In this document: piece by piece, positions 4,801 to 28,004 of the stretch
Layout: each line of letters begins with the position of its first letter
How positions within the stretch are numbered: the stretch's first letter is position 1
Source of the DNA: a virus
DNA length: 28,004 nucleotides
Strand: one strand, 5' to 3'
Virus record (IMG/VR): IMGVR_UViG_3300020214_000089
Location: 1-28,004 of that record
The notes under the pieces: generated by a model
The model's input: the letters and a program-made list of their open reading frames with translations, nothing else
Databases searched by the model: none
Told to the model about the DNA's origin: nothing
Position numbers and translations under genes: made by a program

Positions 4801-5444
4801 CAACTTCAGCGTATTTAACTGGTAGAAAAAGATATCAACGTCCACAAGGAGTTCTGTGGTCCAACAACTCTGGAACCCTTACTGGTGGATACTACGTGCC
4901 TAACGGTATTGAAATTGGTGCTGATACCGCCGTAACAAGTGCAGTTTTATTGAATCAATTTATTATTTTGTCTGATCATAATAGAAGCGAACTTTCATTT
5001 ACACCGCAAAGAATTGAGCAGCGTCAAAGAACCATTAATGGTCGTATGAGGTCTTATCATATTGCAGATAAACTTCAAATAGGTTTTTCATGGAGTATGC
5101 TTCCCTCAAGATCGCATTATCAGGTAGCAGATTTTGACGATGAAACAGGAATATCTCCTTATCAAAACAATACACAAGAGTTTACAGCAGATGGTGGCGC
5201 TGGCGGGGTAGCAATATTGGACTGGTATAACAGCCATCCAGGACCATTTTGGATGTACCTAGCATACGATAACTACGCAAATTTTAAACAGGATGGAAAT
5301 GTTGTTGATGCCTCTTTTGGTCATCTTGATCAATATAATGAGGTTATTGAAGTATTCTTTACAGAATTTAATTATTCTGTAGTTAAACGTGGTGGCAATA
5401 ATTTTGACATGTGGAATATATCGGTAACGCTGGAAGAGGTCTAA
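4797..5444 (+). CDS. Minor tail protein, possibly distal tail (Dit-like)
   Basis: A 215-residue protein rich in Tyr, Asn and aromatic residues, with no signal peptide or membrane segment. The start at 4797 overlaps the tape measure stop (ATGA) and has AAAGGG four bases upstream, so the two genes are probably translationally coupled. Position directly after the tape measure is where siphophages usually encode the distal tail protein that joins the tube to the tip. The sequence itself shows no motif I can name; the N-terminal segment around TGRKRYQRPQG and the WMYLAYDNYANF region look like conserved structural cores. The role is inferred from gene order, and it could equally be another tail-tip component. 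Confidence 0.6.
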   Translation: MTTSAYLTGRKRYQRPQGVLWSNNSGTLTGGYYVPNGIEIGADTAVTSAVLLNQFIILSDHNRSELSFTPQRIEQRQRTINGRMRSYHIADKLQIGFSWSMLPSRSHYQVADFDDETGISPYQNNTQEFTADGGAGGVAILDWYNSHPGPFWMYLAYDNYANFKQDGNVVDASFGHLDQYNEVIEVFFTEFNYSVVKRGGNNFDMWNISVTLEEV

Positions 5445-8400
5445 ATGTTTGTAAGTGAAGCATTAAAGACTCACCTTGAAACATCAGCAACTGTAAGCAT
5501 AGAGTCCTTGGTTTTGGCCGAGTGGAACATGAACATGCCAGATAACATTTTTAAGGTAGGCAATTATCGTTATCGTCCAAGAGATGTTAATTCGATATAT
5601 CATACTCTTCCTTCAACTTTTGATCAATTAGATATTGGAGAATATTATACTGGCGCTACAGATGCCGATGTTGTAGTAGACGGCGGTTTTGATGATGATG
5701 ATAATCCACAACAGTTCACCTTAACCAAAGATAAAATGAAAATGATTTATTCTTTAGAGGATTGTTTAAAACCATTTAGACCTCGTTCTGGAGTAAACAA
5801 GGCTCTGTATGTTGCTGGAAGAAAGTTGGCAAACTCTGGCTCAAGACTTGCAGAGCGTCCAAGGTATTACATGTCATCTAGATATGATCAATTTAGATAT
5901 TGGACATCTTATAGAACTCAAGATGGAAATGAATATGGAATCGCAAAGAATGTATCGAATGGATTATATTTTATAGATGACGCTGCACCGTTTGTAGTAT
6001 ACGAAGAAAATGTTCCAACAAACAGAATAGTTATCAAAACTCAGACAAATGTTGGAGATGTTGACTTGGGTCCGTTTTCAACAAACACTGGAAGCATTGA
6101 CGATCCCCTATTTGGAGAATCAAATAAAACCACACCATCCAGATTTAAAATACAATGTCTTGAAGGCGATAACTGGGTAACTATATCTGATTTTACAGAA
6201 TTTAGCACAAGAGATGATGAAGACAATTCTCCCATATTTAGTTCTGATGGATATTTGCAGTTGGATTATGGATTAAAGATTCCTGATTTATACAAAGATA
6301 TTTTTATTTTTGCAGAACAACTTTCTTCGGATACCCTGCTTCCAGAAACCAATGTAGAGGGATATGCATATCTTGTTGTCGAAGAAGAGGGAGATCTTGG
6401 AACATTTCACATTTGGACTGGCTCTGAATATGAAACCTTTTCTCCAGAATATGGCTGGTCGCTAAAAACAGAAACGATTACAAATCAAACTAGTTTTATA
6501 ACTGATGTGACATCTCCAAAATCTTTTACAGATGCAGGAGATGGCTCTACAAAGTATAGAGAGTTTCAGTATATTCGAGGTATTCGTATTGCTGTTGAAA
6601 CAATGAACAAGCAGGACTCTACCTTTGATTTAATTGAAATGTCCCCTAGGCTAGTCGTTGATTTATCTGACAAGGTTATTGACTACAAAATTACAAAAGT
6701 TTTGTCTGATTTAGGAAATAGTTCTGTACCAGTTGGTCAGCTTACAGCATCTAACGGAGAAATGACGGTATTTGATGATGACCAAGCATTTAACGACAAC
6801 AACTCAAACAGCATAATTGCAGACTATTTAAGAAAAAATATAAAATTTAATTTTTATGAAAAAATAATTGATGTAGACGGTTCTGATTATTACGTTCCTA
6901 TAAAATGTTTATATTCAGATGGCTTTCCACAAGCAGATGTAACTGGAGCAACAGTGTCTCTAAGTCTCAGAGATTTTTATTTTTTCTTGGAGTCAATGCC
7001 AGCCCCAAGGCTACTGATGACACAAACATCTTTAAGCATGGCAATATCAACGCTTTTGGATTATATTGGATTTACTAACTATACCTTTAGAAGAACTACG
7101 GGACAATCTGATCCAATCATACCGTTTTTCTTTGTTGCTCCAGATCAAAATGTTGCAGAAGTTTTAACACAGCTTGCTGTAGCAACTCAGAGCGCTATGT
7201 TCTTTGATGAATACAACAACTTTGTTGTAATGACAAAAGAATACCTTCTTCCAGGAGCAGATGATAGGGATACGGACTTTGTTCTTTCTGGATCAAACAA
7301 TCAAACAGATAATGGAATTATAAAAAATCAAACATCTGGAAACTTGCCAAATGTAATTTCTATTGCGTCACAAGATAAAAAAGTATATAATGACGGGAAA
7401 ATTACCTATACAACAAGATACATACAGAGAACTTATGGAAGTTTGAGGCAGGCAAATCTTATTGATCGTGAAAAAACCTGGATATACAAGCCAGTTCTTT
7501 TATGGGAAGTTGCGGGAACAGAAAATCTTAAAACGATAAACGAGGTGGCATCAACTCAAAGTAGTTACGTTTTGTCAGCAATGCCAATCAATTCATCACT
7601 AACTACTAGCCCTCCTACAGTATCCGATGGTTTTGTGATAGATAATGTTTTAGATTTGGGTGAAAATGTTTATTGGCTAACAAGATATCAGGGATATCTT
7701 TATGCAAATGGAGAAATTATAAAATACGATGCTGTTCAGTATAGCGTAACAGGAACTGGAAATGTTTATATAAGCAGCAATCAAGAATATCAAAGATATT
7801 TTGCATCCCTCCCCTTCAATGGAAAAATATATCCAACAGGACTTATAAGAATATATTCTTTACCATTTTATGAAACAATAGATGGCAATACAAGAGCAAA
7901 GTCTGGATCAGTTCAACAACATGGTCGTGGTCAATTTGGAACACCCATTGTTGAGCATACTGCTGCAATCAATAGCTATTGGACAAACAACCAGAATGTT
8001 CGTGGATGCGAGATGCAAACTCAGTTTTTGTTTACTACTGTATTAGACGAAGATGTTAATGCTCCATCTACAACAACTGGCCCTGCTGGTGTAAATAATG
8101 CACTTGCTGCTCAAACCACAAGAAATGGCATCATAAAAAACTTTACAGCAACTAATTATTTGACCGAAACCGAAGTCAATAATTTAAAATCAACGCAAGC
8201 AGGAACCGTACAGTCTTCTGCATTGGTTATGAATGGTCCTTCTTTTAAAACCACAGAAACTCCAATAAATTTGGTTTCTTATGTTTATAAAAATTTAAAT
8301 AATGCATACAGGCACTTTGGAACTAGGATAAGAATTATTGGTAAGATAGAAAATAGTGAGGTTCGTGGACAAACGCCAATCGGTAGCATACCCTATTTTG

Positions 8401-9764
8401 AAGTGCCTGGCGTAGGAACAAATAAAAATCCAAGCATTGGTGGTGGATCTGGAGGCATGGCCGTTCTGTTAAACCCAGAAACAAACAATGGCTATTACTT
8501 TGAAATAGTTGCTCTAACAGAAAACAACATAGAGCAGTATTTGAAGACTGATTCAAAAACTGGTGAAAGCCAAATATCAATCAATAACGTTGTGTTTTAC
8601 AAAGTTAAAAAAGATGCTTCTAATAATAATGCTATACCGATTAAGCTTTATGGCGGACTAACAAAAATTTTGGTTGATGACGGAAGATTTACTGGTCAGC
8701 ATAGATTGATGGGTGAAGAAAATCCGACGGTATATGATTTATCAGTAGAATATCAAGATATTGGAAACACTCGTAGATTTTATTTGTACATTAATAACAA
8801 ACTAATAAAGATAGTAGATGATGCAGATCCTCTGCCCATTTATAATAATGTGGCGCTATTTGTTCGTGGATCTTCTAGATGTATGTTTGAGAACATATAC
8901 GCCCTAACAAATAATTATGCACAAAATACTGTATTCACAGTTGGAGAAACTCTGTCTAGTGCATTTGGAGACAAAGAAATAGATGCAAATGAAGCATTTA
9001 GGAAATATGCTATGAGTGGTCTAGTTCAATCGACCTATCTATCTGGTCTTAGTGCCCAACAACCACCCAAATACAATATGTATTTTGAAGAATTTGGAAC
9101 TATTATGCGTGAGTGTGCATATTTTGATGTTCGATATGATCGTGCATACCCCGCCCTTTATGCCAAACTTTCACCCACATTCAATAGAATTAAGGGATAT
9201 ACTGTTTCTGGATTTCAAGCAGATTCCTATGGAGCTGAATTTTTAATATTCAACACAACAGATACAGCATTGAGTTTAGACGAAACAACAGGAAATTATT
9301 TAAAAATTCAGGGTGTTACTTTTACACAAGATACAACACACGAACTTAGCGTAGACGAATATTATAAGAAGAAAAGCAATTTATCAGATCCAGAGTTTGG
9401 TATTGATTCAATAACAACATCTGCTCTTGTAGAAAAAGCGGTATATGATGAAATAAAGCTTAGTAGGCTAATATATGGTAAAAACGAATTCTCTTTAGAC
9501 AGCCTGTATATTCAGACTCCAGATCATGCAGAAGATTTGCTAGGATGGATTGTAAGTAAGACAAAGGATCCAAAGAAGGCTATTGGTTTGCAGATATTTG
9601 CAATACCAACACTTCAGCTTGGAGACGTTGTTACTCTTACTTATCAAGACTCTGATGGTCTCGATTTGGTAACAGACTCTGAAACAAGGTTTGTAGTATA
9701 TAATATTGAGTATAGTAGGTCAAATACTGGACCATCTATGACTATATATATGAGTGAGGTGTAG
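5445..9764 (+). CDS. Large minor tail protein (tail tip/Tal-like) with lectin-like insert
   Basis: A 1439-residue protein beginning directly after the preceding stop, with GAGG upstream of the ATG. The N-terminal part (about 1-60) and Asp-rich beta segments resemble large tail-tip proteins of actinobacteriophages that follow the tape measure and the distal tail protein. A region at about 945-1160 has the run of short beta strands seen in concanavalin A-like/LamG-like folds (YDLSVEYQDIGNTRRFYLYI, then NKLIKIVDD, then a closing FENIYAL). This suggests a glycan- or surface-binding insertion. The C-terminal part (about 1300-1439) looks like a baseplate-hub segment ending in SRSNTGPSMTIYMSEV. No peptidase or lysozyme motif was recognised. 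The likely role is tail-tip assembly and host contact. The lectin-like call rests on strand pattern only. Confidence 0.7.
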   Translation: MFVSEALKTHLETSATVSIESLVLAEWNMNMPDNIFKVGNYRYRPRDVNSIYHTLPSTFDQLDIGEYYTGATDADVVVDGGFDDDDNPQQFTLTKDKMKMIYSLEDCLKPFRPRSGVNKALYVAGRKLANSGSRLAERPRYYMSSRYDQFRYWTSYRTQDGNEYGIAKNVSNGLYFIDDAAPFVVYEENVPTNRIVIKTQTNVGDVDLGPFSTNTGSIDDPLFGESNKTTPSRFKIQCLEGDNWVTISDFTEFSTRDDEDNSPIFSSDGYLQLDYGLKIPDLYKDIFIFAEQLSSDTLLPETNVEGYAYLVVEEEGDLGTFHIWTGSEYETFSPEYGWSLKTETITNQTSFITDVTSPKSFTDAGDGSTKYREFQYIRGIRIAVETMNKQDSTFDLIEMSPRLVVDLSDKVIDYKITKVLSDLGNSSVPVGQLTASNGEMTVFDDDQAFNDNNSNSIIADYLRKNIKFNFYEKIIDVDGSDYYVPIKCLYSDGFPQADVTGATVSLSLRDFYFFLESMPAPRLLMTQTSLSMAISTLLDYIGFTNYTFRRTTGQSDPIIPFFFVAPDQNVAEVLTQLAVATQSAMFFDEYNNFVVMTKEYLLPGADDRDTDFVLSGSNNQTDNGIIKNQTSGNLPNVISIASQDKKVYNDGKITYTTRYIQRTYGSLRQANLIDREKTWIYKPVLLWEVAGTENLKTINEVASTQSSYVLSAMPINSSLTTSPPTVSDGFVIDNVLDLGENVYWLTRYQGYLYANGEIIKYDAVQYSVTGTGNVYISSNQEYQRYFASLPFNGKIYPTGLIRIYSLPFYETIDGNTRAKSGSVQQHGRGQFGTPIVEHTAAINSYWTNNQNVRGCEMQTQFLFTTVLDEDVNAPSTTTGPAGVNNALAAQTTRNGIIKNFTATNYLTETEVNNLKSTQAGTVQSSALVMNGPSFKTTETPINLVSYVYKNLNNAYRHFGTRIRIIGKIENSEVRGQTPIGSIPYFEVPGVGTNKNPSIGGGSGGMAVLLNPETNNGYYFEIVALTENNIEQYLKTDSKTGESQISINNVVFYKVKKDASNNNAIPIKLYGGLTKILVDDGRFTGQHRLMGEENPTVYDLSVEYQDIGNTRRFYLYINNKLIKIVDDADPLPIYNNVALFVRGSSRCMFENIYALTNNYAQNTVFTVGETLSSAFGDKEIDANEAFRKYAMSGLVQSTYLSGLSAQQPPKYNMYFEEFGTIMRECAYFDVRYDRAYPALYAKLSPTFNRIKGYTVSGFQADSYGAEFLIFNTTDTALSLDETTGNYLKIQGVTFTQDTTHELSVDEYYKKKSNLSDPEFGIDSITTSALVEKAVYDEIKLSRLIYGKNEFSLDSLYIQTPDHAEDLLGWIVSKTKDPKKAIGLQIFAIPTLQLGDVVTLTYQDSDGLDLVTDSETRFVVYNIEYSRSNTGPSMTIYMSEV

Positions 9765-9765
9765 T

Positions 9766-10743
9766 GTGTCATTTTTTTATAATACTGATTCTTTTATAGA
9801 TAATGATTACGGTGCTTTAGATAACGAGACACTTCTTGCTGAAATTAAGAAAAGAGCTGATGAGGAAGCAGAAAAAGCTAAGGCTAAACCAGGAGAAGAT
9901 GCATACTATAAGAGAGATGAGAAAACTGGCTTATCTCAAGCACAGGTAGACGCAAAAGCAGCACAGGCAGAAGCAGCAGAGGCAAAAAGAGCAGCAGAAG
10001 AAGCGTTTAAAGCGGCACAGGCAGAACAGGAAAGAATTAAACAAGAAAAAATTAGAAAAGGGACCGTATTTAAGTCAGAGACAATTACTATGCCCGCCAG
10101 TCAGTGTTATTCTGGAAAGGGCGTATATGAAGTTGGTTACAACTATTATGGAGAAACAATAAGCAAAACGTTTAAAGAATGTGCTGGTCCATTTAAACAA
10201 GAAGATACCCCTCCCCCTGGCGGCAATAGTGGTGGCGAATCAACAGAAAACAAAAAGGTTGATGCAACTCCTCCAACTTCATTAAACACATCACTACTTG
10301 CAACACCACCTCCACCACCAAAAACAGCACCAATAGATACAATTCTTTTTGACGACGATGCTGTTCCAATAGAGATAATGTCAGACTTGATACTTGAAAA
10401 TATCGGAGGGCATGAATTAATAAACATTGCTCGTAATGACACCATTAATGGACAGATTGTTGCATACCAGCCCATAAAAAATCTATCATCAATTCAGCAA
10501 CAGTATAATCCTAATAATATTGTTAGTCTTCAAGATACTTCGGACAAATATTTTGCTAACTTTTCTATTCAATTACAGAACAGTTTGTTAGAAGAGGGAG
10601 AGGGTAGCGGTCCTGATGGGGCCTACATCTTTATAGATTCGACTAGTGGAGATCTTATGGTAGAACTAATAAATGTCGATCCAGATCAACAGATGGAAGT
10701 AGAAATCAGTCAAAGTGGTACAATATATGAGGCGAGCATATAA
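9766..10743 (+). CDS. Putative minor tail/structural protein, coiled coil plus proline-rich linker
   Basis: I do not recognise a family. The chosen GTG start at 9766 lies one base after the preceding stop and has GAGG about six bases upstream; a GTG at 9754 would add four residues (MRCS) inside the previous gene. The product is 325 residues. Residues about 20-95 are a charged, Ala/Glu/Lys-rich predicted coiled coil. A short segment with two Cys follows (SQCYSGKG and FKECAGPF), then proline clusters (DTPPPGG, ATPPPPPKTAP) and an acidic, beta-rich C-terminus. The arrangement suggests an oligomeric rod, a flexible linker and a globular tip. Its place between a tail-tip gene and a fibre-like gene supports a structural role. 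Confidence 0.55.
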   Translation: MSFFYNTDSFIDNDYGALDNETLLAEIKKRADEEAEKAKAKPGEDAYYKRDEKTGLSQAQVDAKAAQAEAAEAKRAAEEAFKAAQAEQERIKQEKIRKGTVFKSETITMPASQCYSGKGVYEVGYNYYGETISKTFKECAGPFKQEDTPPPGGNSGGESTENKKVDATPPTSLNTSLLATPPPPPKTAPIDTILFDDDAVPIEIMSDLILENIGGHELINIARNDTINGQIVAYQPIKNLSSIQQQYNPNNIVSLQDTSDKYFANFSIQLQNSLLEEGEGSGPDGAYIFIDSTSGDLMVELINVDPDQQMEVEISQSGTIYEASI

Positions 10744-24048: not shown

Positions 24049-24550
24049 TGAAATAAACAAGGTTGTTGAGGAGTATCTAAAGGGCAACGACCCGACAAGA
24101 ATATCAAAGACTCTTGACATACCACGCCAAAGAGTTGTTGCACACCTAAGTGAATGGCGTATTATGGCATCTGCTAACGACGCTATTCGTGCTCGTGCTA
24201 AAGAAGCACTTGTTGGGGCAGATGCACACTATACAAAATTAATCAATCAGGCCTATGAAGTTATTGAAGACGCTACCACCACATCAAATCTAACTGCAAA
24301 GACAGCAGCGATTAAACTTGTTATGGATATTGAAGCAAGACGAATCGATATGTTGCAAAAGGCTGGGCTGTTAGAAAATAAAGAATTGGCAGAAGAAGTA
24401 ATTCAGATAGAGAAACGACAAGAAGTTCTTGTTGGTATTCTTCGTGACATAGCCTCTGAACATCCGGAAGTAAGAGATTTGATTATGTCAAGACTGTCAA
24501 CAATAGCCAAAGAGGGTGAGGTAATCACAATTGTCCAAGATGTTCAATGA
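24011..24550 (+). CDS. terS: Terminase small subunit (probable)
   Basis: A 179-residue protein that would recognise packaging DNA. GAGGG lies five bases before the ATG. An N-terminal HTH (about 27-50, DPTRISKTLDIPRQRVVAHL) is followed by a long helical region (about 55-150), as in oligomeric terminase small subunits. The gene directly precedes and overlaps the large terminase subunit, the usual order. The sequence does not allow a family name beyond this. Overlap with DUF3310 in a different frame constrains both proteins. Confidence 0.75.
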   Translation: MSNAEIELVKHLDEINKVVEEYLKGNDPTRISKTLDIPRQRVVAHLSEWRIMASANDAIRARAKEALVGADAHYTKLINQAYEVIEDATTTSNLTAKTAAIKLVMDIEARRIDMLQKAGLLENKELAEEVIQIEKRQEVLVGILRDIASEHPEVRDLIMSRLSTIAKEGEVITIVQDVQ

Positions 24551-26312
24551 TTTTATTGATGCTCTGAAGGATGAGCAGTTTGAGACTATTCCTGTAGATG
24601 TGAATACATTTGTTGAGTCCCCAAATTATCTTGGACAGCCCCCACTCTCATTAATACAATACGATATTGTTGAGGCTATGAGTCAGGTCTATAAAAAACC
24701 AGACTTGATAAACTTATTAGGAACGGATATGGGGCCAAAGCATTATGAGAAATATACAAAAAACGAAATCATTTTACAACTTGGGAAGGGTAGTGGGAAG
24801 GACCATACCTCTACTATTGCCTGTGCTTATGTTGTTTATAAGTTACTATGCCTTAAAGACCCTGCTAGATATTTTGGAAAACCGACGGGAGATGCAATAG
24901 ACATCATAAATATTGCCATTAACGCAGAGCAGGCCAAGAATGTTTTTTTCAAGGGGTTCAAAAACAAAATTGAAAAATCTCCATGGTTTGCTGGAAAATA
25001 CAGTGACAAAGTAAATAGCGTTAGCTTTGATAAGTCGATAACAGTTTACTCTGGACACTCAGAGCGTGAATCTCACGAAGGTCTAAACTTATTTATGGCA
25101 GTTCTTGATGAAATTTCTGGTTTCTCTGCAGATATAGGAACTGGTAACGATCAAGGTAAAACTGCTGACAACCTTTATAAAGCGTTCCGTGGTTCTGTAG
25201 ATTCTCGTTTTCCTGATTTAGGTAAGGTTGTTCTTCTATCATTCCCTCGTTATTCGGGTGATTTTATTTCTAAAAGGTATGACGAAGTTGTTATGGAAAA
25301 AGAAGTGGTAGAAAGAAAACATAAATTTATTATAAATGAAGAACTTCCAGAGGGTCCAGACAATCAGTTTGAAATATCATGGGAAGAAGATCATATTATT
25401 TCTTACAAATACCCTAGAATGTTTGCTCTTAAAAGACCAACCTGGGAAGTAAATCCAACACGAAAGATAGAGGATTTTAAGGTAGCTTTTATAACGGATC
25501 TAGGGGATGCGATGATGAGGTTTGCATGTGTTCCAACATTTTCATCAGATTCTTTTTTTAAACAAAAAGATAAGCTAGAAAAATGCATGACATTAAGAAA
25601 TCCTATAGATAGTTTTAAGAGATTGGATTTGACTTTTAAGGCAGATCCTGATAAAGTTTATTATGTACATGCCGACTTAGCGCAAAAACATGACAAGTGT
25701 GCTGTTGCTATAGCGCATGTAGATAAATGGGTAAATGTACAGGTCATAAAGGACTACAAGCAGGTTGCTCCTATTGTTGTCGTTGATGCTGTGGCTTGGT
25801 GGGAGCCTAAAGTAGAAGGTCCTGTAAATTTATCAGAAGTAAAAAACTGGATAATAAATCTTCGTAGAGAAGGATTTAATGTTGGAATGGTTACGTTTGA
25901 CAGGTGGCAGTCGTTTGACATTCAACAGGAACTAAAAGCTGTTGGAATAAACACAAACACAGTTTCCGTTGCCAAAAAACATTATGAGGACCTTGCTATG
26001 ATGATTTATGAAGAAAGAATTGCAATGCCAATGATTCCTTTGCTTCTTGAAGAGATGAGTGAACTAAAGATTATGAGAAATAATCGAATAGATCATCCAC
26101 GCAAGAAATCTAAAGACTTGGCAGATGCCGTTTGTGGGGCGGTATTTGGAGCAATATCTCACACCAGTAGGGACTCTAATCTTGAGATTGAGGTTCATAC
26201 CTGGGGTTCTGCTAGTAGACTTGCAGAGAAAGAGAAATCTATGGTAGAATTGGAATCTAGGGAAATGCCTGACGATGTTAGAGATTTCCTGACAGAATAC
26301 AAACTTATATAA
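24531..26312 (+). CDS. terL: Terminase large subunit
   Basis: The ATPase-nuclease that packages phage DNA. TTG at 24531 gives 593 residues and has GGTGAGG at 24515-24521 about nine bases upstream; ATG at 24540 gives 590 but is 18 bases from that site, so TTG is slightly preferred. Numbering is from the TTG. Walker A is G85-KGS-G89-K90-D91, Walker B is V191-L-D193-E194 followed by IS. Nuclease acidic residues are D382 (YVHADLAQ), D457 (VTFDRWQ), and D529/D532 (SKDLADAV), the standard RNase H-like set. The small subunit overlaps by 20 nt. No portal gene follows; an exported protein does. Confidence 0.95.
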   Translation: MSKMFNDFIDALKDEQFETIPVDVNTFVESPNYLGQPPLSLIQYDIVEAMSQVYKKPDLINLLGTDMGPKHYEKYTKNEIILQLGKGSGKDHTSTIACAYVVYKLLCLKDPARYFGKPTGDAIDIINIAINAEQAKNVFFKGFKNKIEKSPWFAGKYSDKVNSVSFDKSITVYSGHSERESHEGLNLFMAVLDEISGFSADIGTGNDQGKTADNLYKAFRGSVDSRFPDLGKVVLLSFPRYSGDFISKRYDEVVMEKEVVERKHKFIINEELPEGPDNQFEISWEEDHIISYKYPRMFALKRPTWEVNPTRKIEDFKVAFITDLGDAMMRFACVPTFSSDSFFKQKDKLEKCMTLRNPIDSFKRLDLTFKADPDKVYYVHADLAQKHDKCAVAIAHVDKWVNVQVIKDYKQVAPIVVVDAVAWWEPKVEGPVNLSEVKNWIINLRREGFNVGMVTFDRWQSFDIQQELKAVGINTNTVSVAKKHYEDLAMMIYEERIAMPMIPLLLEEMSELKIMRNNRIDHPRKKSKDLADAVCGAVFGAISHTSRDSNLEIEVHTWGSASRLAEKEKSMVELESREMPDDVRDFLTEYKLI

Positions 26313-26313
26313 T
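26308..26313 (+). promoter_or_regulatory. Possible -10 element for the first exported-protein gene
   Basis: A perfect TATAAT overlaps the last codons and stop of terL, 22 nt before the ATG at 26336. It lacks a TGn extension and has only a weak -35 (TTTCCT at 26285-26290, 17-nt spacer). CTGACA at 26289-26294 is a better hexamer, but its 13-nt spacer is too short. AAGGAG at 26326-26331 then serves the gene. AT-richness makes a chance match possible. Confidence 0.35.
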
Positions 26314-26335
26314 GAATAATATAACAAGGAGAAAA

Positions 26336-27508
26336 ATGAATTCATTGAAAAAAATCGCTCTAGCCGTGGTTGCAGCCATGACTTTGGGCACCTTTATTGC
26401 AACACCTGCAAGTGCTGCTGTAATGACAGTCGCTGTATCTCTAGACGGAACCGCTAATACAACAAATTCCGCTATTGCTACACCTGCTGCATTGCCAGTG
26501 CCTGCTGATAACACAGTAGATGCTGCAGACGGACTACGCTTTATTGCAACTGTAGATACAGGAACATCAGTTTCTGCTACCTGCACAAATTGCACAATCG
26601 TATCTGCTTTGCATACTGCTGCTGCTCCAGTAACATCGGCATCAGGTTCTTCAAGCCTGACCATTGCAACTGGCACAGGAACAACTGCAACGTTTTATGT
26701 ATATACTAAAACGACAGCAATTGGAACCGTGGTTGTAACAAACCAGGGAACTACATTGACATATTATGTACAGGGAACTGCTGGAAAGATTAATACTCTT
26801 TCTGTAAATGCCCCTGCTTCTGGTGCTGCTGGCACCAAGCAAGATATTGTAGTAACTGCAACAGATTCATTTGGCAACAAAGTATCTGGCAAGTCACTTA
26901 CTGCAACTGTATTTGCTGCTTTGGGAACACTAGATTCCTCAACTGCAACAACTGGATCGGCATTGTCAGATTTTGGAACAGCAACCTTTAAGGTTACTTT
27001 GCCATCAACTGGCACACGTTCGCTAATTACATTTGCTCCAACAACTGCTGGAGATGCAACTACTGCAGACATAACTGGTCTTCCTGCTCGTGCGCTTGCA
27101 CCTTTTGCAGAGATTGCAGTTCGTGATCTTGTAGGAGAACTTGCTGCAGAGAAGGCTGCGCTTGCTGCTGAAAAAGCTGCTCGTGCTGCCGATAAGGCTG
27201 CTGCAGACAAAGCACTTGCCGATGCACTAGCAAAGGCTGCTGCTGATGCTGCTGCGCTTAAAGTAACTACTGATGCTGCTGCCGTTAAGGCTGCTGCTGA
27301 AATTGCAACCCTAAAGGCTGATGCTGTAACCGCCAAGGTTGCTTCAGACAAGGCTCTTGCAGATGCAAATGCTGCTGCTAAGGCACAACTAGATGCAGCA
27401 AATGCTGCAAATGCTGTTGCTCTAGCAGACATTAGGAAGGCGTTCAATTCCCTCGCTAAGAAGTGGAATAAAAAGAATCCAACTGCAAAGGTTGCTTTAA
27501 TTAAGTAA
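26336..27508 (+). CDS. Exported Ala-rich protein: signal peptide, Ig-like domain, coiled coil
   Basis: The start at 26336 is chosen because AAGGAG lies four bases upstream; ATG 26312 would overlap terL and bury the signal peptide. The 390-residue product begins MNSLKKIALAVVAAMTLG and ends its signal at TPASA, with likely cleavage after about residue 27. A beta-rich region (about 30-150, with CTNC at 83-86) precedes a segment at about 151-235 (KQDIVVTATDSFGNKVSGKS) resembling a bacterial Ig-like domain of the Big-1 type. An Ala/Lys/Asp-rich coiled coil (about 259-365) follows, ending in AFNSLAKKWNKKNPTAKVAL. There is no membrane anchor, LPxTG or enzyme motif. It would be exported to the cell envelope or surface, perhaps affecting adsorption, or be a virion component that uses a secretion signal. 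The role is unknown. Confidence 0.8.
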   Translation: MNSLKKIALAVVAAMTLGTFIATPASAAVMTVAVSLDGTANTTNSAIATPAALPVPADNTVDAADGLRFIATVDTGTSVSATCTNCTIVSALHTAAAPVTSASGSSSLTIATGTGTTATFYVYTKTTAIGTVVVTNQGTTLTYYVQGTAGKINTLSVNAPASGAAGTKQDIVVTATDSFGNKVSGKSLTATVFAALGTLDSSTATTGSALSDFGTATFKVTLPSTGTRSLITFAPTTAGDATTADITGLPARALAPFAEIAVRDLVGELAAEKAALAAEKAARAADKAAADKALADALAKAAADAAALKVTTDAAAVKAAAEIATLKADAVTAKVASDKALADANAAAKAQLDAANAANAVALADIRKAFNSLAKKWNKKNPTAKVALIK

Positions 27509-27523
27509 TCTAAACTTAAGATT

Positions 27524-27558
27524 AGAGTGGGATGTATTAGATCCCGCTCTTTTCTTTT
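27524..27558 (+). terminator. Rho-independent terminator after the exported-protein gene
   Basis: AGAGTGGGAT (27524-27533) pairs with ATCCCGCTCT (27541-27550) around a 7-nt loop, with one T-G wobble. TTTCTTTT follows directly. A smaller inverted repeat, TAATCT/AGATTA (27506-27524), overlaps the stop codon just upstream. This is the only convincing terminator in the window and separates the two exported-protein genes. The opposite direction lacks a T-tract. Confidence 0.85.
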
Positions 27559-27567
27559 GCAATAAAA

Positions 27568-27576
27568 TGATATAAT
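27568..27576 (+). promoter_or_regulatory. Extended -10 promoter candidate (TGATATAAT)
   Basis: A third copy of TGRTATAAT lies 10 nt after the terminator T-tract, with no good -35. A start near 27583 gives a leader of about 31 nt before the ATT at 27614, including GGGAG at 27602-27606. Together with the terminator it would give the second exported-protein gene its own transcription unit. Confidence 0.55.
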
Positions 27577-27613
27577 AGTCTTATTATAAAGTACGTATGC
27601 TGGGAGATTCAAA

Positions 27614-28004
27614 ATTAAAAACAACGTATTTCGTTTGATTCTTACAGCAATACTTGCTTTTGGTGTTTTTTTTACTCCAGCCCAAAGCAATCCAGATCCT
27701 TTGACTGAGGGCTATACAGAAATTTTAGAATTAAATAAAAAAGTAAATAATCTTCAATACAAGACACAATTTCAATCATTAATTGACATAGCAACAAATA
27801 AATACAACACCGCAGTGTCTGCCAAGACTACTAAAGACAATTCGTACACAGCATATGATCAGGCGGTAGCAGCACAGGCAACAGCGCTATCAGAAAAGAA
27901 TGCTGCTCAGGTTGCGGTAGATAGTCAAACCGTTACAGTAGCCACAGCCTTAACCAATAAAAACAACGCCAAAGACGCATTAGATACTGCTAATATAAAT
28001 CTTG
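27614..28004 (+). CDS. Exported coiled-coil protein with apparent ATT start (3' end outside window)
   Basis: The frame is open from 27590 to the window end, but has no ATG or GTG near its start. ATT at 27614 follows GGGAG by seven bases and gives MKNNVFRLILTAILAFGVFF, a complete signal peptide with a basic N-terminus and likely cleavage after TPAQS (about residue 25). TTG at 27635 would remove the basic residues, so ATT fits better. ATG at 27597 is in another frame and stops after 13 codons. At least 130 codons are present. The mature part is helical and rich in Ala, Thr, Asn and Lys (AAQVAVDSQTVTVATALTNK), probably a coiled coil. A start lost to an assembly or sequencing error is the main alternative. 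Confidence 0.65.
   Translation, partial: MKNNVFRLILTAILAFGVFFTPAQSNPDPLTEGYTEILELNKKVNNLQYKTQFQSLIDIATNKYNTAVSAKTTKDNSYTAYDQAVAAQATALSEKNAAQVAVDSQTVTVATALTNKNNAKDALDTANINL

Follow-up and report, generated by a model that had tools for sequence, protein, structure and literature searches.

The window, by which we mean the whole stretch of DNA analysed (an IMG/VR virus record of 28,004 bases), carries at its 3' end the first part of a gene for a PA14-type protein that appears to start with ATT (Table 1). The gene forms a unit of its own, in which the terminator of the upstream gene, an extended -10 box, a Shine-Dalgarno (SD) sequence and the ATT follow in that order; the -10 box was read directly and is not among the matches of our promoter scan, which requires a -35 box. 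The codons in frame 5' of the ATT (AGT ACG TAT GCT GGG AGA TTC AAA) are preceded by TAA 27587-27589, and a small out-of-frame ORF across the start region, closed by TGA 27636-27638, is probably non-functional. The preceding gene, for an exported coiled-coil protein, adjoins the terminase gene and has no Pfam or PHROG match; in many relatives a gene of its type precedes the PA14 gene, and these genes start always or nearly always with ATG.

Table 1. Features at the 3' end of the window
Feature	Position	Strand	Remarks
Upstream exported coiled-coil protein gene, ATG start	26312..27508	+	Serves as a secreted-protein control from this phage
Intrinsic terminator of the upstream gene, then T-run	27524..27550	+	1 found against 0.3 expected; fold z -5.37
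Extended -10 promoter TGATATAAT	27568..27576	+	Direct reading
13-codon ORF from ATG 27597, out of frame	27597..27638	+	Overlaps the start region; direct reading
Shine-Dalgarno GGGAG	27602..27606	+	7 nt before ATT; anti-SD duplex -7.3 kcal/mol
Start codon ATT (near-cognate, non-AUG), strongly supported	27614..27616	+	SD-spaced; same ATT in L002 and L003
Putative exported PA14-type surface protein gene, 5' part, 130 codons	27614..28004	+	Runs off the window; PA14 part lies beyond it
Signal peptide IKNNVFRLILTAILAFGVFFTPAQS	27614..27688	+	Cleavage probably before NPDP; by inspection and alignment with relatives

Complete relatives in IMG/VR are ~640-712 residues long, and the whole protein begun in the window would have ~700. 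They share one order of parts: signal peptide, long helix, PA14 domain, second long helix, Pro/Glu-rich part, conserved DMTDDQREKAQEV and a hydrophobic C-terminus that ends near Arg-Arg. By inspection of the window and its relatives, the N-terminus has the features of Sec export, namely a basic N-region, a hydrophobic core and, ahead of the cleavage site, small residues. Pfam PF07691 (PA14) matches the proteins of L016 (28.1 bits) and L008 (25.2 bits) above the cut-off of 24 and gives no match in L011. In the AlphaFold model (mean pLDDT 65.6), only the two long helices (52-146 and 314-429) are predicted with confidence; block values in the better parts of the PA14 region between them are 66-81, falling below 50 elsewhere in that region, and the rest is low. 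Foldseek nevertheless matches the central part to PA14 carbohydrate-binding domains (E 2e-5, probability 1.00, 14% identity). Its predicted fold is like that of the PA14 domain of Marinomonas MpAFP (5j6y, 6xa5), whereas the phage domain is set between two long helices, with a signal peptide and a C-terminal hydrophobic helix. Our reading is that a helical stalk carries the PA14 domain as its head, probably anchored at the cell surface. The gene occurs in many uncultured viruses from lakes. Actinobacterial hosts, likely Nanopelagicales of lakes, are suggested by a WhiB-like gene that lies close to some copies (L034) and by a terminase similar to those of Streptomyces phages. A tblastn search with L016 found no homologues in 50,697 GenBank phages, and the single weak match in GTDB genomes, to the Pro/Glu-rich part on a Christensenella contig, was taken as a low-complexity chance hit. 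The neighbourhood varies: in L016 a gene for a JmjC/cupin-like protein (5368-5943) separates the exported coiled-coil gene from the PA14 gene, an HslV/proteasome-like peptidase (8684-9208) and an exported protease-like protein (9412-10320) are encoded 3' of the PA14 gene, and an endolysin gene lies ~3.7 kb 3' of it. One neighbour family, found in 28 stretches, encodes a protein of repeated KI(P/K)-type units (MPKIKIPSIKIPSIKMPKFKMPKVNIPK...).

A sequence-only reading had placed the start at ATT 27614 on the strength of its SD sequence and of the signal peptide that it completes. Direct reading agrees that GGGAG lies at good spacing, with seven bases between, and that the stretch up to the hydrophobic core holds no in-frame ATG or GTG. 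Initiation at TTG 27635, which the same reading held to remove the basic N-region, would indeed give MILTAILAFGVFF, with the loss of basic residues K2 and R7. We consider it quite improbable that translation begins at this TTG or at another in-frame codon and that the ATT is merely leader. TTG is an ordinary minor start codon, accepted as a start, and it shares bases with the stop codon TGA of the small ORF (TTGA), so that coupling is possible; however, it has no SD (+0.6 kcal/mol), it sacrifices the basic N-region, 30 of 36 relatives starting with ATA, ATT or ATC have no other in-frame ATG, GTG or TTG upstream or within six codons downstream, and the second base of the start codon is invariant. 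An upstream in-frame start is ruled out in copies with TAA directly 5' of the start codon, as before the ATT or ATC of L059, L084 and L093; this arrangement was counted in three of the 36 ATA/ATT/ATC starts and in 43 of 68 TTG starts.

Even less probable is a programmed -1 frameshift in AAAAA joining ATG 27597 to the frame of the signal peptide. The window does have this ATG in another frame, followed by the run of five A, and an out-of-frame ATG whose ORF extends past the start occurs in 11 of the 36 ATA/ATT/ATC relatives; yet the ATG of the window lies upstream of the SD and lacks one of its own, its small ORF is common only to the window, L002 and L003, and the leaders of 25/36 ATA/ATT/ATC and 54/68 TTG copies contain no ATG in any frame, which excludes frameshifting in most copies. 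The family does not show the conserved upstream ORF and slippery site that mark genes with programmed frameshifting, as most leaders are free of ATG. As to an ATT created by assembly or sequencing error, a suspicion that a single contig end might raise, the chance appears negligible. L002, a separate IMG/VR record, has DNA identical to the window around the start, and L003, from a further metagenome, encodes a protein 87% identical and also has ATT at this place, which makes an assembly slip unlikely and refutes the error at the level of contigs. Neither contig has an ATG at the site or an indel joining ATG 27597 to the frame, the outcomes that the sequence-only reading had named as fatal to its proposal.

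The relatives extend this comparison to a whole family. A first scan with the window protein as query gave 20 IMG/VR loci, and alignment-based scans then found over 500 relatives apiece, the best 80 being retained from each. The resulting collection comprises 428 stretches (the window and IMG/VR loci), overlapping and many from one contig, so that distinct starts, although still related to each other, are the fairer count. The 390 stretches that could be parsed contain 142 distinct starts: 95 TTG, 26 ATA, 17 ATT and 4 ATC, with neither ATG nor GTG. Among the 38 stretches missed by the text rule, 37 were read with tblastn and all have TTG, ATA or ATT, while L246 runs off its end. About a third of the distinct starts (47/142) are thus ATA, ATT or ATC, a figure that includes L012, and the remainder are TTG. 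L012 has ATA at a weak SD but is a copy of L010 that carries a frameshift; leaving it out lowers ATA to 25. At L012:5900-6050, this L010-type gene has its signal-peptide region out of frame, as in a broken or misassembled allele. No readable relative among the 428 stretches starts with ATG or GTG, and the non-canonical start is thus conserved across the family. With a near-cognate codon other than ATG and GTG at the homologous, SD-spaced position of every readable relative, ATT 27614 is strongly supported as the start codon. The comparison with related phages that the sequence-only reading had proposed finds the same ATT in the two closest relatives, L002 and L003; across the family, what is conserved is the set ATT, ATA, ATC and TTG, from which ATG is excluded, and not ATT itself.

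An earlier set of 104 distinct start regions, after five hand corrections, consists of 68 TTG, 17 ATA, 15 ATT and 4 ATC. The corrections set L032, L037, L041, L064 and L096 to TTG, the automatic rule having taken a wrong anchor or an adjacent ATT; pairs of candidate codons at the start (ATA ATT in L072 and L090, ATC ATT in L069) were counted as ATT. All 104 start codons have T at the second position, and the first and third bases vary only within ATA, ATT, ATC and TTG, a pattern beyond chance. A check free of any such rule, in which all IMG/VR contigs were scanned with the decisive base left open, gave the same picture. The pattern AAGGGGGAAGGCAA-ATN-AAA occurs in 29 stretches and reads ATA in all of them (23 distinct contexts). 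Likewise, AGGAGTTATAG-NTG-ACTAGGAC occurs in 107 stretches, of which 80 were counted and read TTG in 80/80 (48 distinct contexts), the remaining 27 having gone into the 428-stretch census.

The avoidance of ATG is clear against 34 other gene families that neighbour the PA14 gene in these phages, examined under an identical SD rule. ATG accounts for 257/371, 200/264 and 97/116 of their SD-preceded starts at the loosest, middle and strictest cut (69-84%), shares that are probably underestimates since the rule examines 45 codons and is noisy for the controls, against 0/83, 0/78 and 0/38 in the PA14-gene family. Nor is this avoidance a trait of secreted proteins in these phages, because the neighbouring exported coiled-coil family has ATG in 34 of 35 strong-SD cases. 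Among families 1-29 listed, the large terminase (relatives of window 24531-26312) is alone in likewise combining numerous strong-SD starts with a low share of ATG, having 18 TTG, 13 GTG, 3 CTG and 2 ATG among 36. An overlap of its start with the previous gene is perhaps why ATG is scarce there, and this family indicates that those low in ATG need not all be regulated. Within the PA14-gene family, SD strength follows codon class: the mean SD energy is -9.65 kcal/mol before ATA, ATT or ATC and -7.30 kcal/mol before TTG (p 7e-14 over the 104 starts, kinship uncorrected). The window itself has only a moderate SD, at -7.3 kcal/mol.

On a quick protein tree built without the signal peptide and the start, the start codon changed at least 28 times, at least nine of them among ATA, ATT and ATC alone, and never to ATG; 14 gains or losses of TTG are forced by well-supported branches. 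Each of the four codons is one base away from ATG, and the ATA/ATT/ATC class never takes G as its third base. The leaders fall into at least four unrelated designs and a dozen odd ones, all without an ATG start. Four leader types (A-D) are distributed as a mosaic on the tree, with 24 changes among 92 rows; within type A the third base shifts among A, T and C in at least six changes, and TTG is fixed in types B, C and D. As leader types are swapped between phages, independent events must be fewer than sequence counts, some codon changes being exchanges of the 5' module. This mosaic, together with the fixed TTG of three types, might indicate that the avoidance of ATG is purely historical, a few near-cognate leader modules having spread by recombination with no selection at present. 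We regard this explanation as unlikely, given that changes at the third base, within type A and across the family, interchange A, T and C without ever yielding G, that unrelated leader designs all avoid ATG, and that drift to ATG would be favoured in most genes. Across the 104 distinct 5' ends, promoter, leader and signal peptide seem to pass between phages as one module, whichever protein body follows.

Almost all of these 5' ends have a recognizable promoter, with a TGnTATAAT-type box in 97/104 distinct leaders and a TATAAT-like one in 104/104. Compared with dinucleotide shuffles, the 63 distinct long leaders show the better folds (mean z -2.73; 39/63 at p 0.05 or less), and no such signal was found in 21 short leaders or in the leader of the window. 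RNAalifold predicted no consensus pairs on a MAFFT alignment of 38 leaders, probably because the hairpin arms are out of register. With short leaders and the window lacking a fold signal and no consensus pair, a 5' hairpin is not part of the rule. Leaders such as those of L009, L038, L058, L123 and L151 contain a 9-11 bp hairpin reaching from about the expected mRNA 5' end to just before the SD, with pairs that differ in kind between phages; it is absent from short leaders and from the window. In the leaders of L029, L033 and L065, GCAAGAG 5' of the SD can pair with CTCTTGC 3' of the start, placing SD and start in one loop. Among the three stretches searched against Rfam (L016, L038 and L009), no leader family exceeded the gathering score, the only matches being tRNAs.

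The absence of ATG from all readable copies suggests that evolution deliberately restrains the translation of this gene. The interpretation that we favour, with a probability of roughly three in four, is that ATT 27614 is the true start of a membrane-anchored surface PA14 protein of an actinobacterial phage, and that its family has been selected to initiate poorly, with ATG and GTG excluded. With an extended -10 promoter of its own and a clear SD, mRNA supply and ribosome recruitment look adequate; the mismatch of the start codon with the initiator tRNA would be the limiting step. Most likely, the secreted protein, which may be harmful or wasteful when made at full rate, would thereby be kept at a low, even level. 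It might have to be scarce because it is toxic to export, because it blocks receptors or because of its timing close to the lysis genes, all of which are guesses. Translation might also be sensitive to host IF3. A phage-encoded IF3 was found in 0/16 phage records, so that any IF3 control would rest on the host. TTG is only mildly weak, so strict IF3 control describes the property shared by the family less well than does an avoidance of efficient starts. The sequences show the position of the codon, the family-wide lack of ATG and the tie between SD strength and codon class, whereas the low protein level, the IF3 dependence, the surface anchoring and the reason for a low dose are inferred. More speculatively, the near-cognate start may act as a regulatory device: a strong promoter would supply abundant mRNA, often with a hairpin at its 5' end, and a fixed bottleneck at the start codon, dependent on IF3, would keep the sugar-binding surface protein at a dose that is low, has little noise or is released conditionally, for example when host IF3 runs short late in infection. 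Such a family would be the first known in phages to be defined by its exclusion of AUG; this extension is tentative, and we think it rather doubtful. The search for a tRNA with an altered initiator anticodon, covering the window and 24 loci, gave a tRNA-Met (CAT) only in L042 and L073, both TTG-started, and the ATA, ATT and ATC starts are therefore not explained by such a tRNA. The sequence-only reading had also suggested that the ATT might keep the protein low; by analogy with measurements on other genes in the accessible portions of PMC5472188 and PMC13009471, it may well do so.

The family, present on hundreds of contigs, tolerates every near-cognate tested, the efficient ones excepted. For work on initiation fidelity in actinobacteria, it offers start codons and SD sites that vary naturally on a single gene, and it points to a phage protein whose dose may matter. 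Gene callers limited to ATG, GTG and TTG cut off the signal peptide of the ATA, ATT and ATC copies, and such truncated calls could lead to the protein being mistaken for a cytoplasmic or virion protein. In bacteria, near-cognate starts are known from a handful of host genes; pcnB, with its AUU start, is grouped with infC and sigR as non-AUG genes discriminated by IF3. The kind of mechanism is thus already known; neither a precedent for this family in phages nor a conserved phage gene defined by the absence of AUG was found in the literature searched, and the accessible portions of PMC5472188, PMC13009471, PMC10158994, PMC6802176 and PMC10202952 describe no such phage family.

In the excerpts available of PMC5472188 and PMC13009471, IF3 represses start codons mismatched with the initiator tRNA, and AUU and AUA starts lower the yield, to ~10% of the AUG level in PMC13009471, where they accompany extended SD sites. 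The phage family fits selection against efficient initiation of the kind seen, as far as these excerpts go, in infC and sigR. It resembles infC, started by AUU, AUA or AUC, in a near-cognate third-base difference from AUG conserved across species; infC has a strong SD in S. aureus (PMC13009471) and an ATC start in Streptomyces (PMC5472188). It differs in that infC encodes IF3 and regulates itself, whereas the phage gene encodes a putative exported surface protein and also accepts TTG. With Streptomyces sigR, whose GTC start is repressed by IF3, the excerpt of PMC5472188 shows a shared actinobacterial context, strong SD and conserved non-canonical start (32/34 GTC and 2 GTT). By contrast, sigR is a host regulator using GTC or GTT, and a change to ATG, GTG or TTG raises SigR (PMC5472188), so that TTG, common in the phage family, is derepressed there. 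S. aureus cvfC1 (AUU) and ccpN (AUA) share, according to the same portion of PMC13009471, a conserved start, an extended SD and reporter expression at ~10% of the AUG level, and the stronger SD before ATA, ATT and ATC in the phage family is in line with these AUU/AUA genes; unlike it, cvfC1 and ccpN are chromosomal, neither phage-borne nor exported, and show no exchange among four codons.
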